Position numbers and translations under genes: made by a program
Source: Armatimonadota bacterium
Lineage (GTDB): Bacteria; Armatimonadota; Fimbriimonadia; Fimbriimonadales; Fimbriimonadaceae
Length of the DNA stretch: 64,000 bases
Direction of reading: 5' to 3'
NCBI GenBank assembly: GCA_022563855.1
Contig: JADFMN010000005.1
Location: 1 to 64,000 of the forward strand
In this document: positions 3,524 to 10,893 of the stretch, piece after piece
Layout of the letters: every line of letters begins with the position of its first letter
How positions within the stretch are numbered: position 1 is the first letter of the stretch
Notes under the pieces: generated by a model
Told to the model about the DNA's origin: nothing
Seen by the model: only the letters and a program-made list of their open reading frames with translations
The model's database searches: none

Positions 3524-3961
3524 TTATTTCTTAGGCTTGTCTTCTGAAGCCTCGTCTTCAGGTTTCTCTCTTTCCGGTTTCGTCGGCAGCAGCCCAGGAT
3601 TCCCCTGCGCGTACAGCCGGATTCCGCGATTCGCGAGGATCGAGCCGATGCCGGCCATCACGATGAGCAGCAGTACTTTGAGCAACACCCCGAACGCCGC
3701 TGCAACCGTGGCGTTGATATTGATCGTCTCACCGCCCGAAACCTCAATGGCTTCGCCCGGCGGAACGGCGAACATCTCGCGCGCGAAAATAAAAGCCGTA
3801 ACGATGAGCGCTACGCCGCCCAAGAACGTCAATAACCCGAGAGTCGTCGCGAGCGCATCGCGCCGTTTTTCAGGCAATCGAAATAGCCTCCGGAAGGGTG
3901 GTTTGGCGGCTGTGCATCGAACCGCTCCATGATACCGCTCAAGCCTCGCGCGCACGGTCAA
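3524..3961 (-). CDS. small two-TM membrane protein, unknown function
   Basis: 145 aa. A basic N-terminus of about 35 residues is followed by two hydrophobic helices (about 37-62 and 86-109) separated by a short polar loop (PPGEAIEVSGGETIN), then a charged, Lys/Glu/Pro-rich cytoplasmic-type tail. No family recognised. Its start lies inside the 3' end of the MFS transporter gene (23 bp overlap), so the two are probably co-transcribed. An internal start would remove the overlap but no better ribosome site is visible. Confidence 0.55.
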   Translation of the reverse strand: MTVRARLERYHGAVRCTAAKPPFRRLFRLPEKRRDALATTLGLLTFLGGVALIVTAFIFAREMFAVPPGEAIEVSGGETININATVAAAFGVLLKVLLLIVMAGIGSILANRGIRLYAQGNPGLLPTKPEREKPEDEASEDKPKK

Positions 3962-5159
3962 CGGGTTGCCTTACCCTCAAGGCCATGACGATCGGCACGA
4001 GCATCAGCGCCCCGGCAAGCGCGTACGGTATCCAGGGCGAGCGCTGGTACAGGCTGTTGCCGATCAGGGGGCCGGCAATCCGCGCCAGTGCGCCTAGAGC
4101 CTGCGTGAGCCCGAAGACGCCGCCGACGATCGCAGCCGGCGCGGCGCGCGAGATCAGGCTCGACAGCGAAGGCGAACTCAGACCGGAGCCGACCGCGAGC
4201 AGTCCGGCGACGCACAGAGCCCAAGTCCACGGCGGTGCCCACGGCATGAGAGCAAGCGCGGGCGCCATCAGGAAATACCCGACCCTGACGAGCGCCGTCT
4301 CACCGAACTTTGCGACGAGCGGGCGGATGAATCCGCCCTGGACGATCGCCATTACGACTCCGACTTCAGTGAGGATGAGCGCCGTGTGGAACTCGCTCAG
4401 ATCGAACACGTCGTGGGCCATGCGAAAGTACGTGCTCTCCATGTTCGACATCGCAAAGTTGACGGCGAAGAACAGGATCAAAAGGTAGCCGAGCCCCGGC
4501 AGCCGCAAAGCGGTCCGAAGGCTCTCGGCCATCCCGATGCGGTCGGCGGAGGGCGCATCCCTCGGCAGCTTCAGACTCTCCGGCAGGAAGCGAAAGACGT
4601 AGGCGAAGTTGACGAGCGCCATGGCCGCTGCCGCCAAGCCGAGCAGCACCGGACTCTCTCCACCGAGCCCGATCAGGTAGCCGCCCACCGGTGGCCCGAG
4701 GATGAAGCCGAGGCCGAAGGCGATCCCTAGCTTGCCCATCGCCGCCGCTCGATCTTCCGGCTTGGTGACGTCGGAGATGTACGCGTACGCCACGCTGATG
4801 TTTCCTGCGGCGAACCCCATCAGCACACGGGCGCCAGCGAGGATCCAGAGCGAGTCGGCCTGCGTATACGCAAGCCCTGCAAGCACCGCCATACTGGTCG
4901 TGACCAGCAGGATCTTGCGACGGCCGATTCTATCGCTCATGCGGCCCAGAATCGGCGAGGTGAGCAGTTGGGCGATGCTAAAAAGAGCGAGCGTGAGCCC
5001 GATGATCAGGCCGATCGTCATCGACCCTTCTGGCAGCGCAAGCCGGTTGACGAGCTTCTCGCCGCGCAGCTGCAGGTCGGGGATGAACAGGCCGAACGAC
5101 AGGATGTCGAGGAACACCGTCATAGTGATCGCCAGTACGTTCGGCGGACGGCGGCTCAT
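3939..5159 (-). CDS. MFS drug/metabolite exporter (DHA1-like)
   Basis: About 406 aa inner-membrane transporter with some 12 helices. The first helix (VLAITMTVFLDILSFGLFIP), the MFS motif A loop GRMSDRIGRRK between helices 2 and 3, and the motif C-like GFILGPPVGGYL of helix 5 place it with the proton-coupled drug antiporters of the TetA/DHA1 type; the substrate is unknown. I chose the ATG at 5159 because it begins just before helix 1 and because a TATACT -10 box sits 8 nt upstream of it; an in-frame ATG at 5237 would add 26 residues that resemble no signal. It overlaps the small membrane protein gene downstream. Confidence 0.85.
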   Translation of the reverse strand: MSRRPPNVLAITMTVFLDILSFGLFIPDLQLRGEKLVNRLALPEGSMTIGLIIGLTLALFSIAQLLTSPILGRMSDRIGRRKILLVTTSMAVLAGLAYTQADSLWILAGARVLMGFAAGNISVAYAYISDVTKPEDRAAAMGKLGIAFGLGFILGPPVGGYLIGLGGESPVLLGLAAAAMALVNFAYVFRFLPESLKLPRDAPSADRIGMAESLRTALRLPGLGYLLILFFAVNFAMSNMESTYFRMAHDVFDLSEFHTALILTEVGVVMAIVQGGFIRPLVAKFGETALVRVGYFLMAPALALMPWAPPWTWALCVAGLLAVGSGLSSPSLSSLISRAAPAAIVGGVFGLTQALGALARIAGPLIGNSLYQRSPWIPYALAGALMLVPIVMALRVRQPVDRAREA

Positions 5160-5405
5160 CGTGGGGAAGTATAGACGACTCGGGCTTTGAATCGACGCGA
5201 CTGTTGCGCCACGTTTTTCGAGCGAACCCGTCGGCATCTAAAACCAGGATGGATTGGGCTCCGTGCTCAAAAGACCGGTTCGAAGCCGAAGAACTTTGCC
5301 AGAACGCTGTAACATATTCTAGTGGGGACAAGAGGTTGGGTGATGACGACGAACTACTGTACGGTGAGCGAGCGAATCAGAGGGGAGTCTGCGGGAGATG
5401 TGCGC

Positions 5406-6107
5406 ATGTTGAGTCTGTTAAGCCTCCGCAAGTCCACGCGGGCCTTGTGGCCCTGGCTCCTCGCTGGGCTTGCGGTAATGAACTGGTCATGCGGCAACGG
5501 TCAGGCTCTGCCGGAGCAGAGTGAGTCCGACTCAAATCAATCGGTCGGAGCATCTACCGAACAACGGGCGAAAGATCTGGGTGAGCAGGCGAAGGTTCAC
5601 ACCAGCGAAAGCGTGGAGGCCGGTGCCATCACGCCTGAGGCCGCGATATTCATCGTCGATGGTCTGTTCGACGATGAATATACGTACAATGTGTTCGCGT
5701 CTGCCACGCTACAGACGCTTTCCAAACTGGACTTCGATTTTACTCCAATCGTGCTCGCACTTTACGAGCACAGGGCTAAAACACTTAGCAACTCTGATGC
5801 CCTGACGGCAACATCGTTTAGGATTTTTCGGCAAGCAATTATTGTGGCCCGACAAGACCTACCGGAGCACTATGCCGTGATATTCATCGCTGGGCCGAGC
5901 ATCGACCGAGCATACGATGTTCTCTTGCAGCACGGTCTTTCGGCTATTGTAATTGAAGAGGGCGCAGATCGAGGCCTCGCGTATCCCGTCGGCCAAGAAT
6001 CTAACGTTTGGGAGGCACTCGATAGCGACCCGGATAGCAGCGAGTACATATTGAACTATCTCGATTTCCGCGCGGGATTTCGAAGTACGCTGCCCGGCGG
6101 CAGTTAG
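5406..6107 (+). CDS. putative exported/lipoprotein-like hypothetical protein
   Basis: 233 aa from the ATG at 5406, which has a GGGAGA ribosome site 8-9 nt upstream; an in-frame start at 5322 would add 28 polar residues. The N-terminus has a basic patch, a hydrophobic segment (ALWPWLLAGLAVM) and then a Cys in WSCGNG, suggesting export, but the lipobox is poor. The rest is acidic, with an alternating hydrophobic pattern (IFIVDGLFDDEY, YAVIFIAGPS, LSAIVIEEGA). No family recognised. Codon use is less G+C-biased than that of its neighbours, hinting at rapid evolution or acquisition. Confidence 0.6.
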   Translation: MLSLLSLRKSTRALWPWLLAGLAVMNWSCGNGQALPEQSESDSNQSVGASTEQRAKDLGEQAKVHTSESVEAGAITPEAAIFIVDGLFDDEYTYNVFASATLQTLSKLDFDFTPIVLALYEHRAKTLSNSDALTATSFRIFRQAIIVARQDLPEHYAVIFIAGPSIDRAYDVLLQHGLSAIVIEEGADRGLAYPVGQESNVWEALDSDPDSSEYILNYLDFRAGFRSTLPGGS

Positions 6108-6146: not shown

Positions 6147-6189
6147 CACACAAAGCAAAGGCCAGCCAATCAACTTCGACCGGCTGGCC
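6147..6189 (-). terminator. intrinsic terminator of the riboswitch transcript
   Basis: Minus-strand hairpin with a perfect 8-bp stem GGCCAGCC/GGCTGGCC (6182-6189 and 6160-6167) around a 14-nt loop, followed by TTTGCTTTGTG. The T-rich tail is on the minus strand only, so it ends a transcript arriving from higher coordinates, i.e. the riboswitch unit, and not the plus-strand gene ending at 6107. Confidence 0.75.
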
Positions 6190-6286
6190 CTCGCGACACT
6201 ATTCGACAAGGCTCCCTGTGCCTAGACCATCCATTCGCTATGGTCGCGCTCAATAAAGTGCGTTCTCGGCACGCGGAACCTCAAGA

Positions 6287-6403
6287 TCAGTGGTTGGAAC
6301 CTCTCGACATACGATCGGCTCCCGTGCTACTCGTCGCGCTCGCAAACGGCATCTGACTAGCTTCGCCATGTCCGCCCGCGAGACTACCGAGAAGGCTTCC
6401 CAA
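6287..6403 (-). CDS. candidate 38-aa ORF downstream of the riboswitch
   Basis: TTG-initiated frame with a perfect Shine-Dalgarno AGGAGGAG a few nucleotides upstream (minus strand, around 6409-6416), directly behind the 6416-6431 hairpin. The product would begin MGSLLGSLAGGHGE and is small, Gly/Ser/Ala-rich and unlike anything I recognise. A second frame (-1 relative to this one) is open from about 6322 to the TAG at 6223-6225 and reads protein-like (VPRTHFIERDHSEW), ending 34 nt before the terminator stem. So the locus could hold a short peptide, a frameshifted or decayed gene of about 60 codons, or a non-coding RNA. Low confidence. Confidence 0.25.
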   Translation of the reverse strand: MGSLLGSLAGGHGEASQMPFASATSSTGADRMSRGSNH

Positions 6404-6415
6404 CGGACTCCTCCT

Positions 6416-6431
6416 CCGGGCATTCACCCGG
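6416..6431 (-). promoter_or_regulatory. possible expression-platform hairpin next to a Shine-Dalgarno
   Basis: Minus-strand CCGGG-tgaatg-CCCGG hairpin located between the aptamer and an AGGAGGAG sequence whose first base it shares. It is well placed to couple aptamer folding to ribosome access, but I did not identify the alternative pairing. Confidence 0.35.
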
Positions 6432-6442
6432 TTCTTGCATTG

Positions 6443-6547
6443 GCCTGCGGAGTTAGCTGACGGGTTAGAATCAAGAACTACTCTTCGCCTCACAGGCGAT
6501 TCACCCCGAAACTTGGGTCCCCCGCTGCCGGTCCCCCGGCATTAGGC
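6443..6547 (-). ncRNA. c-di-AMP riboswitch (ydaO-yuaA aptamer)
   Basis: The minus strand carries the conserved ydaO-yuaA elements in order: GCCTAAT at the 5' side of P1, a GGGGGACC segment, GGGGTGAATC, a P3-like hairpin (TCGCC-TGTGA-GGCGA), then CCCGTCAGCTAAC and CCGCAGGC closing P1 (GGCCT pairs with AGGCC). This class binds cyclic di-AMP and usually turns off genes for potassium/osmolyte transport or cell-wall hydrolases. Here the following 250 nt hold no recognisable gene before an intrinsic terminator, and the next gene downstream is on the other strand. Confidence 0.9.
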
Positions 6548-6579
6548 CTCGGAATCTGGCGGAACTTGCCGCCACCCCT

Positions 6580-6585
6580 AGTATA
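6580..6585 (-). promoter_or_regulatory. -10 box for the riboswitch transcript
   Basis: TATACT on the minus strand about 33 nt upstream of the P1 stem of the aptamer. No convincing -35 hexamer is visible at 16-18 nt spacing. Confidence 0.4.
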
Positions 6586-6727
6586 CGACAACATCCAGCG
6601 AATCGATCACAGTTTTTCCAGACTGATCGGCGCCTCTTTGGCGACGTATCGCTTGATCCGCGAGTCTAGGGCAGGGCTGCCGGTATGATTTTGCAGAAGG
6701 TCGGCCCAAGCTGACTTGAACCCGGCG

Positions 6728-9157
6728 ATGCGAACCTGCCTCCGTCTCTTGACCCTAGTTCTTGGAGCAACGCTCGTTGCGCCGCTCCAGGCCCAAGGCG
6801 AGAAGCAGATCGATCTGATCGTTTGGGGGCACCAGATCGGCCCGGAAGACAAGGGGCTCGACGACGTAGTCCGCCGTTTCGAGGAGCTTCACCCGAACAT
6901 CCACGTCAAGATGCTCGGCATGGGCGCGGGTCGAATGAACCCGCAGAAGCTGATGACCTCGATCGTCGGCGAAGTCCCGCCCGACGTGATCTTCCAGGAC
7001 AGGTTCGCCGTGCCGGACTGGTCGCACCTCGGCGCGTTCGAACCGCTCGACTGGCTGATCGAGCGCGATCGCGCAACCGATCCGAACACGCCGGTGCCCG
7101 AGAACTACTACGTGGCGCCGTGGGCCGAGGGGATGTACAAAGGAAAGTTGTACGCGATCCCGTGGATGGCCGACACGCGCGTGCTGTACTGGAACCGCGA
7201 CGCGTTCGCAGAGAGGGCCGACGACCTCCGGGCTGCCGGACTCGATCCAACTAGCGCGCCGCAGACGTGGAGCGAGACGCTCGCCTACTCTCGCGTGCTG
7301 ACCGAGTTCGACGACAACGGCCAGCTCGTTCGCGCAGGTTTCATTCCCAACTTCGGCAACTCCTGGCTGTACATGTACGCGTTCCAGAACAACGCGAGCT
7401 TCATGTCGGCCGACGGGACGGAGTGCACCCTCAACACGCCCGAATCGCTCGAAGCGCTGCAGTTCATGATCGACGGCTACGAGATTCTTGGCGGGATCGA
7501 GAAGGTCGATCTGTTCCTGGCGTCGCTGCGGGGGGAGGAGAACGACCCGTTCTTCAAGGGCCAAATCGCCATGAAGATCGATGGCGACTGGATTTTGCCG
7601 AGCATCGCGCGGTACGCGCCCAGGCTCAACTTTGCGGTCGCCGAGCCCCCGGTTCCAGACGATAGGTTCTATAAGCGCGGTCGCTTCAAGGACGAAGAAG
7701 ATACGTTCATCACATGGGCCGGAGGCTTCAGCTACGCGATTCCAAAGGGTGCGCGCAACCTCGATGCAGCGTGGGAGTTCATCAAGTTCCGCTGTAGCCC
7801 AGAGATGCGAATGCTGGAGATGGTTTCTTACGGAAAGCTCCAGCGCGAGCGCGGCCGGCTGTACGTTCCTCGACCTCACGCCGAGATCTCGACGAATCTG
7901 CTCGCGATCGAGCGGCTGATGCCGGTCGCGGGCAACCTGCGCGATGCATCGGAGCTACACATCTCGATGCTCGGGGTCGCTCGCTTCCGCCCTTCGACTT
8001 TCGCGGGTCAGCGACTGTGGGACGAGCACGTGCGGGCGATGGACAGGGCGCTGCGCGGCACCCTCACGCCGGAAGAAGCGCTGCAATCCGGCGAGGATCG
8101 AGTGCAGAAGTACTTGGACGATGTGCTCGGCAGAGATCAGCTCCCGCTCGCCGATCTGCGCATTCCGGTGGTCATTGGCCTGGTCGGATTTATCTTCGGA
8201 TCGGTTCTGATCGTCGGCTGGTGGAAGCGGCAAAAACTGGGGCGCCTCGCCCGGCACGAAGCGATCTGGGGATACATCTTTGCCGCGCCGTGGATCATCG
8301 GGTTCGTCGTGTTCACGCTTGGGCCGATGGCGGCTTCGCTGTACATGAGCTTCACCAGCTACAACGTTTTCTCCGCCCCGAGGTGGGTTGGGATGCAGAA
8401 CTACAGCGACCTATTCGTCGCAGACGCCGAGCTGCTGTGGAAGGCGCTGTTCAACGTGCTCTACCTGGGCGGCGTCGGAGTCCCGCTCGGCATCATCACG
8501 GGTCTCGCGATCGCCATGATGCTGAACACCGGCGTGCGCGGGCTCCGCTACTACCGAACGATTTACTACATGCCGTCGGTGGTGCCGCTGATCGCCAGCA
8601 TCATCCTCTGGCTATGGATACTCGATCCCGATCCAAGTCGCGGGATTCTCAACGCGCTCTGGGAAAACACGATCACGGAGTGGTTCGGGACCAGGCCACC
8701 TGGCTGGCTGGCCGTCGAGTCGTGGGCAAAGCCGGCGCTGATCACCATGGGCTTGTGGGGGGCTGGGGGCGGCATGATCCTGTGGCTCGCCGGTCTGAAG
8801 GGGATTTCGCGCCAGTTGTACGAGGCTGCAAGCATCGACGGCGCGACGGCGTGGCAGGGGTTTTGGGCGATCACGATACCGCAGCTGAGCCCGCTGATCT
8901 TCTTCAACGTGATCATGGGCAGCATCGGCGTTCTACAGACCTTTGATCAGATTTATGTCGCGGTGAACGGAGAGGGCGCGGGACCGAACGACTCGCTGCT
9001 CGTGCCGGTTTACTTCCTGTTCCGCGAGGCGTTCTACTACTTCCGGCTCGGCTATGCGAGCGCGCTAGCGTGGCTCATCTTCGCGATCGTCATGGTCATC
9101 ACGCTGATCCAGTTCAAGGTCGCGCCGCGATGGGTGCATTACGAGGTTGACAAATGA
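6728..9157 (+). CDS. ABC importer: solute-binding protein fused to MalF-like permease
   Basis: 809 aa from the ATG at 6728 (an in-frame TTG at 6716 is less likely because it precedes the signal peptide). Residues 1-23 form a signal peptide (LLTLVLGATLVAPLQAQ). About 27-460 are a family 1 extracellular sugar-binding protein (WADTRVLYWNRDAF is typical). A helix at about 479-497 and a short linker lead to a MalF/UgpA-type permease with six helices and the EAA loop EAASIDGATAWQGF near 699-712. Normally these are two proteins; the fusion tethers the receptor to its own channel. The next gene overlaps by ATGA and encodes the second permease; no ATPase gene is nearby. Confidence 0.92.
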   Translation: MRTCLRLLTLVLGATLVAPLQAQGEKQIDLIVWGHQIGPEDKGLDDVVRRFEELHPNIHVKMLGMGAGRMNPQKLMTSIVGEVPPDVIFQDRFAVPDWSHLGAFEPLDWLIERDRATDPNTPVPENYYVAPWAEGMYKGKLYAIPWMADTRVLYWNRDAFAERADDLRAAGLDPTSAPQTWSETLAYSRVLTEFDDNGQLVRAGFIPNFGNSWLYMYAFQNNASFMSADGTECTLNTPESLEALQFMIDGYEILGGIEKVDLFLASLRGEENDPFFKGQIAMKIDGDWILPSIARYAPRLNFAVAEPPVPDDRFYKRGRFKDEEDTFITWAGGFSYAIPKGARNLDAAWEFIKFRCSPEMRMLEMVSYGKLQRERGRLYVPRPHAEISTNLLAIERLMPVAGNLRDASELHISMLGVARFRPSTFAGQRLWDEHVRAMDRALRGTLTPEEALQSGEDRVQKYLDDVLGRDQLPLADLRIPVVIGLVGFIFGSVLIVGWWKRQKLGRLARHEAIWGYIFAAPWIIGFVVFTLGPMAASLYMSFTSYNVFSAPRWVGMQNYSDLFVADAELLWKALFNVLYLGGVGVPLGIITGLAIAMMLNTGVRGLRYYRTIYYMPSVVPLIASIILWLWILDPDPSRGILNALWENTITEWFGTRPPGWLAVESWAKPALITMGLWGAGGGMILWLAGLKGISRQLYEAASIDGATAWQGFWAITIPQLSPLIFFNVIMGSIGVLQTFDQIYVAVNGEGAGPNDSLLVPVYFLFREAFYYFRLGYASALAWLIFAIVMVITLIQFKVAPRWVHYEVDK

Positions 9158-10893
9158 GCCAGCAGTGGCTGTTCGTCGTCGGCGCGGTGCTCACGTGGGT
9201 TGGCTGGTTCGCCGTATTCAGAGCCGCGCTCTTTGCGTTTCGAGCATGGTTCGGCGCCGCCTTTGAAAACAGTGCCGACCTGAAGAAGCGTGCGGTAACG
9301 GCGAGCATTGTGGCTGGCGTCTGCCTGCTCATCGGCGCGTTCATGCCGATGGAGACCGGGCTGCCTCAAACGGAACCGTGGAGCGTTCCGCTCGTTTGGT
9401 TCATGGCTCCGTTCCAGGGGTTGTTCGCGTTCGGTTCCGCGGTGTTCATGGTCATTTATGCCGTCAAGGCGATCTCGGCGATTACGGCCGCTGAGAGGGC
9501 GCAGCGGCTGAATACAGTGGCGATCTGGGCGGGCGTGTGCGGCCTTTGGGTGTGGTGGTTCGTCGCGACTGACGGTGCGGTAACGGTGTTCCGCGGAGAG
9601 ATTCAGATGTCGCCGGCCAAGGTCATCGGGCTGGTCGTACTGGCTATAGCAGCGATTGCAGTGATGGTCTACACCGAGCGAAACGCACGCACTCGCGGGC
9701 TCGCCAAGAGCGTCGTCACGCACATTACGCTCGTCGCCGGTTGCGTCGTGTTCGGACTCCCGTTCATCTGGCTGCTCATCACTAGCTTCAAAGAGGATCG
9801 CGACATCACCACCACGGCCGGAATGGTCTGGATTCCGAGGGTGCAGCAGGTCGTCGCGTTCACGGACGTTCGCAATCCGCTCTACGAGTTCAGAAGTCGA
9901 GGCAACAAGATGCGCGGCGTGATCGCCGAGGAGCGCACGGGCGGCCGAGTGCTCATGGAGATCGAGCGTCCGTTCGGCTACCGGGGCAGGCGGGTTGTTA
10001 TTGATCGAGCCGATCTGGTTGCAATTCAGCGGCTCGCGCCGGTCGTTTCGACCATTCATGAAGGCGTCGAGGTCGTCGGCTACGTGATCGAGGAGATGGA
10101 GGGGGGTGAGCGCCGCGTCAACATCACCGAGCCCGAATCGCGGCGGGGCGAAGAGATCGTCGTGGCGATCACAGACACCGACCCGGTGCGCGAAATCGGA
10201 TTGCGATGGCAGAACTACACGGAGATGCTCGAGTGGCTACCTCCGGACACGAACCACGGGCTAGTCTACGTCAAGAACACGATGATCCTCGTGATCATGT
10301 CGGTGATCGGTACGCTCATCTCGTCGGTTCTCGTCGGCTACGGGTTCTCGCGCCTGCGGTTCCCAGGGCGCAACTTTATGTTCATCGTGATGCTGGCGAC
10401 GCTCATGCTGCCGGGGGCCGTGACGATGCTTCCGACCTTCCTGATCTTCCGATCGTTCGGATGGATCGACACGCTGTACCCGATCTGGGTTCCGACGTTC
10501 TTCGCAGGCGCGTTCAACGTGTTCTTGCTCATGCAATTCTTCCGCACGATCCCGATGGAGCTCGAGGACGCCGCGAAGATCGACGGCTGCACCTACGTGC
10601 GCACGCTGTTCCAGATCATGGTGCCGCAGATCAAGCCGGCGTTGGCCGTCATCGCGATCTGGACCTTCCTGGGCGCGTGGAACAACTTCATGGGGCCGCT
10701 GATCTACATCTCGACACCCGAGAACATGCCGATCGCCTACGCGCTGCAGATCTTCCAAGGCGAGCGCGGCGCGGAGTTCGGGCTGATGATGGCGTTCTCG
10801 ACGCTTGCGACGATTCCCGTGCTGCTTCTGTTCTTCTTCGCGCAGCGGTACTTCATCGAAGGCGTTCAGTTGTCTGGTCTCGGTGGGCGGTGA
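9154..10893 (+). CDS. ABC importer MalG-like permease with extra N-terminal helices and a loop insertion
   Basis: 579 aa, about twice the usual MalG length. The C-terminal half is a standard carbohydrate permease with the EAA loop EDAAKIDGCTYVRTLF near 470-485. Before it are about five extra helices (residues 1-175). The first MalG helix (about 187-210, FGLPFIWLLITSFKED) is separated from the usual WQNYTEML segment (about 350) by about 130 additional, soluble, beta-rich residues that should face the periplasm. Overlaps the fused binding protein/permease gene (ATGA), so the two are a unit; the ATPase is probably a shared MsmK-type protein encoded elsewhere. Confidence 0.88.
   Translation: MSQQWLFVVGAVLTWVGWFAVFRAALFAFRAWFGAAFENSADLKKRAVTASIVAGVCLLIGAFMPMETGLPQTEPWSVPLVWFMAPFQGLFAFGSAVFMVIYAVKAISAITAAERAQRLNTVAIWAGVCGLWVWWFVATDGAVTVFRGEIQMSPAKVIGLVVLAIAAIAVMVYTERNARTRGLAKSVVTHITLVAGCVVFGLPFIWLLITSFKEDRDITTTAGMVWIPRVQQVVAFTDVRNPLYEFRSRGNKMRGVIAEERTGGRVLMEIERPFGYRGRRVVIDRADLVAIQRLAPVVSTIHEGVEVVGYVIEEMEGGERRVNITEPESRRGEEIVVAITDTDPVREIGLRWQNYTEMLEWLPPDTNHGLVYVKNTMILVIMSVIGTLISSVLVGYGFSRLRFPGRNFMFIVMLATLMLPGAVTMLPTFLIFRSFGWIDTLYPIWVPTFFAGAFNVFLLMQFFRTIPMELEDAAKIDGCTYVRTLFQIMVPQIKPALAVIAIWTFLGAWNNFMGPLIYISTPENMPIAYALQIFQGERGAEFGLMMAFSTLATIPVLLLFFFAQRYFIEGVQLSGLGGR

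Follow-up and report, generated by a model that had tools for sequence, protein, structure and literature searches.

The window analysed here, a 64,000-nucleotide stretch of an Armatimonadota contig, carries on its minus strand a c-di-AMP riboswitch (RF00379) that probably belongs to a stand-alone non-coding RNA, roughly 410 nt in length and equipped with a promoter and a terminator of its own; this RNA would be a diverged representative of a class occurring once per genome. Type b, as we call this class, is with high confidence a real non-coding class. Judged from sequence, the layout best supported for it is that of a riboswitch-controlled small RNA with an anti-Shine-Dalgarno (anti-SD) seed, so that the regulated small RNA which the preliminary description of this DNA had listed among its options is the best reading for the class, and a moderately supported one for the copy in the window.

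Anatomy of the riboswitch unit

Our analysis supported the earlier proposal of a complete riboswitch unit that ends in a terminator of its own and lacks a recognisable target gene, and the aptamer, the hairpin, the ribosome-site-like AGGAGGAG and the intrinsic terminator were all present in the sequence (Table 1). In a covariance search the ydaO-yuaA aptamer aligned over the full length of the RF00379 model (1–134) at 80 bits compared to a gathering score of 38, and it was the single RF00379 copy in the source genome (3.18-Mb assembly searched). The unit is thus an RF00379 riboswitch and is predicted to bind c-di-AMP; the source genome also encodes the DAC domain of a c-di-AMP synthase (5.9e-40), which was taken as supporting evidence only. 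The −10-like element occupies the same position as the TATAAT or TATACT elements of the relatives in subgroup b2 (see below), and no clear GGAAC −35 element was found upstream of the unit. On the 3′ side of the aptamer, the CCGGG...CCCGG hairpin (6431-6416, minus strand) is followed by AGGAGGAG (6415-6408, minus strand); coding relatives use the GGAGGAGGAG element as their ribosome site, and fold prediction gave CCUUCUC as its pairing partner in the window unit. Over its full 419 nt the unit is folded far more stably than shuffled sequences (z = −4.96), and so is the stretch between aptamer and terminator taken alone (z = −3.09, with 0 of 200 shuffles as good).

Table 1. Positions of the riboswitch unit and of the genes next to it in the window
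Feature	Position	Strand	Evidence or remark
MFS transporter gene, the next one on this strand	3939..5159	-	Pfam MFS_1 1.6e-43
Orphan lipoprotein-like gene, convergent	5322..6107	+	without Pfam match
Intrinsic terminator, 18-bp stem, T-rich tail	6155..6194	-	same place in b2 relatives
Structured RNA body, read as non-coding	6195..6426	-	z -3.09; without conserved ORF, without CCUCC
3′ flank hairpin CCGGG/CCCGG with GGAGGAGGAG (6417-6408)	6408..6431	-	conserved among b2 relatives
c-di-AMP (ydaO/yuaA) riboswitch aptamer	6427..6558	-	RF00379 80 bits, E 5.6e-17
5′ hairpin P0, TGGCGG-CAAGTT-CCGCCA, promoter-aptamer interval	6557..6574	-	in 14/14 b2 loci
-10-like element TATACT (extended GTATACT)	6580..6585	-	sequence

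Two kinds of RF00379 loci in relatives

RF00379 was searched in 100 relatives and the source genome, of which 64 of 101 were positive, and 107 loci were fetched, oriented and read downstream. These loci, all from one Armatimonadota group, fell into two main kinds, the types being assigned by our own reading and simple scans without an independent classifier. The other member of the genus among the genomes searched, 68% complete, gave no RF00379 locus.

In type A (43 loci in 32 genomes), the riboswitch is followed by a strong ribosome site and a small helical ORF of about 85–145 codons, and at least 6 nt of AAGGAGGTGA were found just upstream of 36 of the 43 starts. Type b (56 loci, each in a different genome) consists of the riboswitch, no conserved ORF and its own terminator; many genomes with a type b RNA have no type A gene at all. 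Some few further loci lie directly before ordinary large genes, several of them in more distant families. No other Rfam family was found in the units up to E 0.5 (nine loci), tRNA genes occurring only outside them.

The largest type A family, MLTEnEVRrrv..I...p.rKaRrLLr.sR..., comprises helical-looking proteins of about 90–110 aa with no Pfam match above cut-off, encoded just behind the riboswitch (L017, L010, L030, L043, L056, L060, L079, L082 and others). Further small-ORF families linked to the riboswitch begin MRLLxxvERxFV..., MSFVSQIMRK... and VLMEARIRRELdEAR....

Conserved features of type b

The 40 canonical type b loci, termed b1, are enriched in motifs that are absent or rare in type A. 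CACCTCCT was found in 30 of 40 (0.09 expected; type A, 0 of 42) and ACCTCC in 35 of 40 (2.3 expected; type A, 1 of 42). CACCUCCU lies mostly just before the terminator; ACCTCC has a median distance of 163 nt from the aptamer and, in loci with a strictly scored terminator, stands some 10–20 nt 5′ of the terminator stem. A promoter of the form GGAAC-N15-20-TANNNT was present in 13 of 40 b1 loci (0.29 expected; type A, 0 of 42), which hints at a different sigma factor. The b1 −35 and −10 elements (e.g. L051, L027, L011) are unlike the type A promoters, and the GGAAC resembles ECF-type −35 elements.

A C-G-closed RRNGNN hexaloop hairpin occurs in 16 of 40 b1 loci (1.0 expected) and 7 of 14 b2 loci (0.4 expected); since the motif was defined post hoc, type A, with 2 of 43 loci (1.0 expected), is the meaningful control. 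Between close type b relatives 110 of 125 indels are not multiples of three, a test that is indicative only, as some type A pairs (untranslated leaders included) show such indels too. The genes behind type b terminators are variable and often have a leaderless start right after their own −10 element. For the class, the aptamer, the unit boundaries at the sequence level, the lack of a conserved ORF, the presence of one locus per genome and the conserved motif can be regarded as established.

An alifold solution in which CACCUCC pairs with the GAGAG tail of the aptamer exists in a set of 12 f1 loci. Cis-pairing as the sole reason for the conservation was not relied on, because CACCUCC is constant while the tail differs among b1, b2 and family f5.

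Subgroup b2 and the copy in the window

The window unit belongs to a second subgroup, b2, with which it shares the P0 hairpin, the GCAAGAACC...GGAGGAGGA flank, the place of the terminator and a neighbourhood of MFS and small membrane-protein genes. In all 14 b2 loci P0 is formed by 5 bp or more despite differing sequences (mean stem 6.9 bp compared to 4.7 expected). The subgroup is heterogeneous, two or three members (L024, L086, L101) having been placed mainly by neighbourhood; of the 15 loci initially counted as b2, 7 carry ACCUCC, about half of the subgroup thus being without it. b1 and b2 never occurred in one genome (0 overlaps; hypergeometric 7e-9, kinship not corrected for), as if one replaced the other.

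Two short ORFs lie behind the window aptamer, as had been described before: a 38-codon TTG ORF (6403-6287) and a 57-codon ATG ORF (6423-6250). A c-di-AMP-controlled peptide, translated from either of them by means of AGGAGGAG, would fit the strength of this SD-like element, the TTG 4 nt behind it, and several b2 relatives with a start codon after GGAGGAGG and ORFs of 48–73 codons. However, no homologue of the 57-mer or the 38-mer was found at the riboswitch of any relative, the length of the 57-codon ORF, the longest after the aptamer, is within chance for the composition (p about 0.2), and the b2 peptides differ between genomes, the conserved DNA motifs falling in different frames. Moreover, GGAGGAGG in the window unit is predicted to be paired, and in relatives the element acts as a ribosome site solely at loci where a genuine small ORF follows. 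We therefore regard such a peptide as very improbable, and the earlier suggestion that AGGAGGAG is an active ribosome site was not supported either.

Control of the MFS gene 1.3 kb downstream via the terminator is suggested by seven relatives (L015, L077, L085, L088, L090, L097, L031), in which the MFS orthologue follows the riboswitch by some 320–450 nt. The preliminary description had named an intact long downstream gene in relatives as evidence against its reading, and these orthologues fit that only superficially, since they have their own −10 element 3′ of the riboswitch terminator. In the window, the 18-bp terminator and a 0.8-kb opposite-strand gene intervene, and a TATACT at 5173-5168, 8 nt before the ATG, gives the MFS gene a −10 element of its own, indicating that it is leaderless; in most b1 genomes, furthermore, the gene behind the terminator is unrelated. 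With its own −10, its own start and the intervening gene, MFS was rejected as the target, and its control by the riboswitch is improbable. The terminator, the gene at 5322-6107 and the −10 element of the MFS gene together indicate that the window unit stands alone, with its own promoter element and terminator and without conserved ORFs.

The orphan lipoprotein-like gene between the unit and the MFS gene is confined to the source genome, being absent from the syntenic loci compared. On the other side, one ORF at 6716-9157 (plus strand; 813 aa) apparently fuses an extracellular sugar-binding protein and a MalF-like permease, and another permease gene comes next, at 9154-10893 (both read by eye). 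This group probably has many leaderless mRNAs, with starts 6–10 nt after a TATAAT-like box; starts of this type were seen at 5159-5173 of the window and behind terminators at many loci (hisB, MFS).

Between aptamer and terminator of the window copy the CCTCC/ACCUCC anti-SD motif is absent, the hexaloop hairpin was not found in the unit, and no copy of CACCTCCTGTTG was found elsewhere in the source genome. CACCTCCTGTTGRG was likewise found neither in the source genome (G000) nor in any b2 genome, while all 4 positive controls returned their riboswitch locus, with an additional site in one; relocation of the seed elsewhere in the source genome was rejected on this basis. Lacking CCUCC or a recognisable seed, the output here has diverged or been lost. 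The structured body is not a shared b2 trait, as the first 150 nt of the other b2 units are no better folded than shuffles (mean z = −0.29, compared to −2.38 for the window).

These features bear on decay, in which a riboswitch that formerly drove a small-protein ORF or an anti-SD small RNA lost its output while the sensor persisted. Besides the missing seed and hexaloop hairpin, this would be consistent with the lack of a further RF00379 riboswitch in the source genome, and with the coding type A unit that the b2 neighbourhood holds in three relatives, with an MLTE-type ORF at the equivalent locus (L031, L079 and, by a weak HMM score, L070). On the other hand, the promoter element, P0, the aptamer (80 bits) and the 18-bp terminator are all intact, and the structure of the body is above chance. 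The small helical ORF typical of type A is not present in the window unit, nor did an HMM of 15 MLTE members find a remnant of it in any forward frame. A long lost gene was rejected, as there is neither a remnant of the small-ORF family nor a conserved peptide; for the gene loss by decay that had been suggested earlier, no trace was seen of the ORF that some relatives have at this place, and decay in the broader sense appears unlikely. That the window copy is a functioning type b member is moderately supported.

Proposed switching and targets

In the class, c-di-AMP sensed by the aptamer would act through an expression platform that determines if the RNA downstream is finished or made accessible. 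Family f5 has a T-rich internal terminator behind the aptamer, then a module, GUCAGGyACGGUCA...GACACCUCCUGAC, and after it a final terminator; the module is strictly conserved in L050, L067, L084, L035, L041, L054 and L087. The internal terminator has a 5′ arm and loop (GCUUCGUU) complementary to the 3′ strand of P1 (e.g. GACGAAGC), the duplex energies beating most shuffles per locus, clearly on their own in only 2 of 8 loci. With this terminator/antiterminator layout c-di-AMP would be an off signal, its binding stopping transcription, and a regulated terminator before an ORF-less module makes most sense if RNA is the product. No early terminator is visible in family f1, where the switch may act on how accessible the motif is.

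The direction of control, the action in trans and the targets are what we infer for the class. Its product would be a small RNA with CACCUCCU, adjoining the terminator, as the constant part. This seed is identical to the anti-SD of 16S rRNA as generally known; the host's own 16S 3′ end was not found, its pattern having no match in the source assembly. By pairing with strong ribosome sites the seed would block translation, and the mRNAs of the c-di-AMP-controlled small proteins would be obvious candidate targets: nearly all of them carry strong sites, which makes their regulation in trans by the type b RNA plausible. Since many type b genomes have no type A gene, other targets would be needed too. 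Full complementary sites (AGGAGGTG before ATG) numbered 3–25 per genome and 1–10 in the reversed control, in most genomes little above that control, and provide no evidence of targets. Tentatively, and as a somewhat doubtful possibility, the class could be a small RNA gated by c-di-AMP, present as a single copy throughout the order, that uses a 16S-like CACCUCCU seed to repress mRNAs with a strong SD, among them those of the c-di-AMP-controlled small proteins in the same cell. If so, one riboswitch class would control both the targets and their antisense regulator in a signalling circuit, and the source genome would be a natural case of seed loss; the seedless window copy could reflect a changed seed, a changed target or loss. 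The class lends itself to direct tests: each genome has a single locus, its ends and seed are well defined, and seed-less variants such as the one in the window occur naturally.

Relation to known systems

Known c-di-AMP riboswitches switch coding genes. The window aptamer is an RF00379 riboswitch of the same kind (80 bits), and the type A relatives use it ahead of coding genes as usual, whereas the window unit has no coding target, its own terminator and apparently RNA as its product. In the literature searched for c-di-AMP riboswitches together with Armatimonadetes or trans-acting small RNAs (the primary ydaO papers being outside its scope), no such RNA was described. The proposed RNA would let c-di-AMP act on many mRNAs at once.

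The alpha-r14/NfeR1 small RNAs of rhizobia carry CCUCCUCCC anti-SD motifs (PMC10746234). They resemble the class in having an ultraconserved anti-SD motif in variable surroundings, the copy in the window being without such a motif, but they are not ligand-controlled, bear three hairpin-loop seeds and are unrelated in sequence.

The closest layout is that of EutX of Enterococcus faecalis and Rli55 of Listeria, trans-acting small RNAs controlled by a B12 riboswitch, which sequester the EutV protein via an ANTAR element (reviewed in PMC7602753). There too a 5′ riboswitch decides if a free-standing small RNA is made, and the ligand causes premature termination, as would be the case in family f5. 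The present class differs in its ligand, c-di-AMP, and in its CACCUCCU seed, and it is conserved throughout an order-like group with one copy per genome. The list of small RNAs under riboswitch control is very short; a free-standing conserved RNA with a c-di-AMP sensor would extend it to a second ligand.
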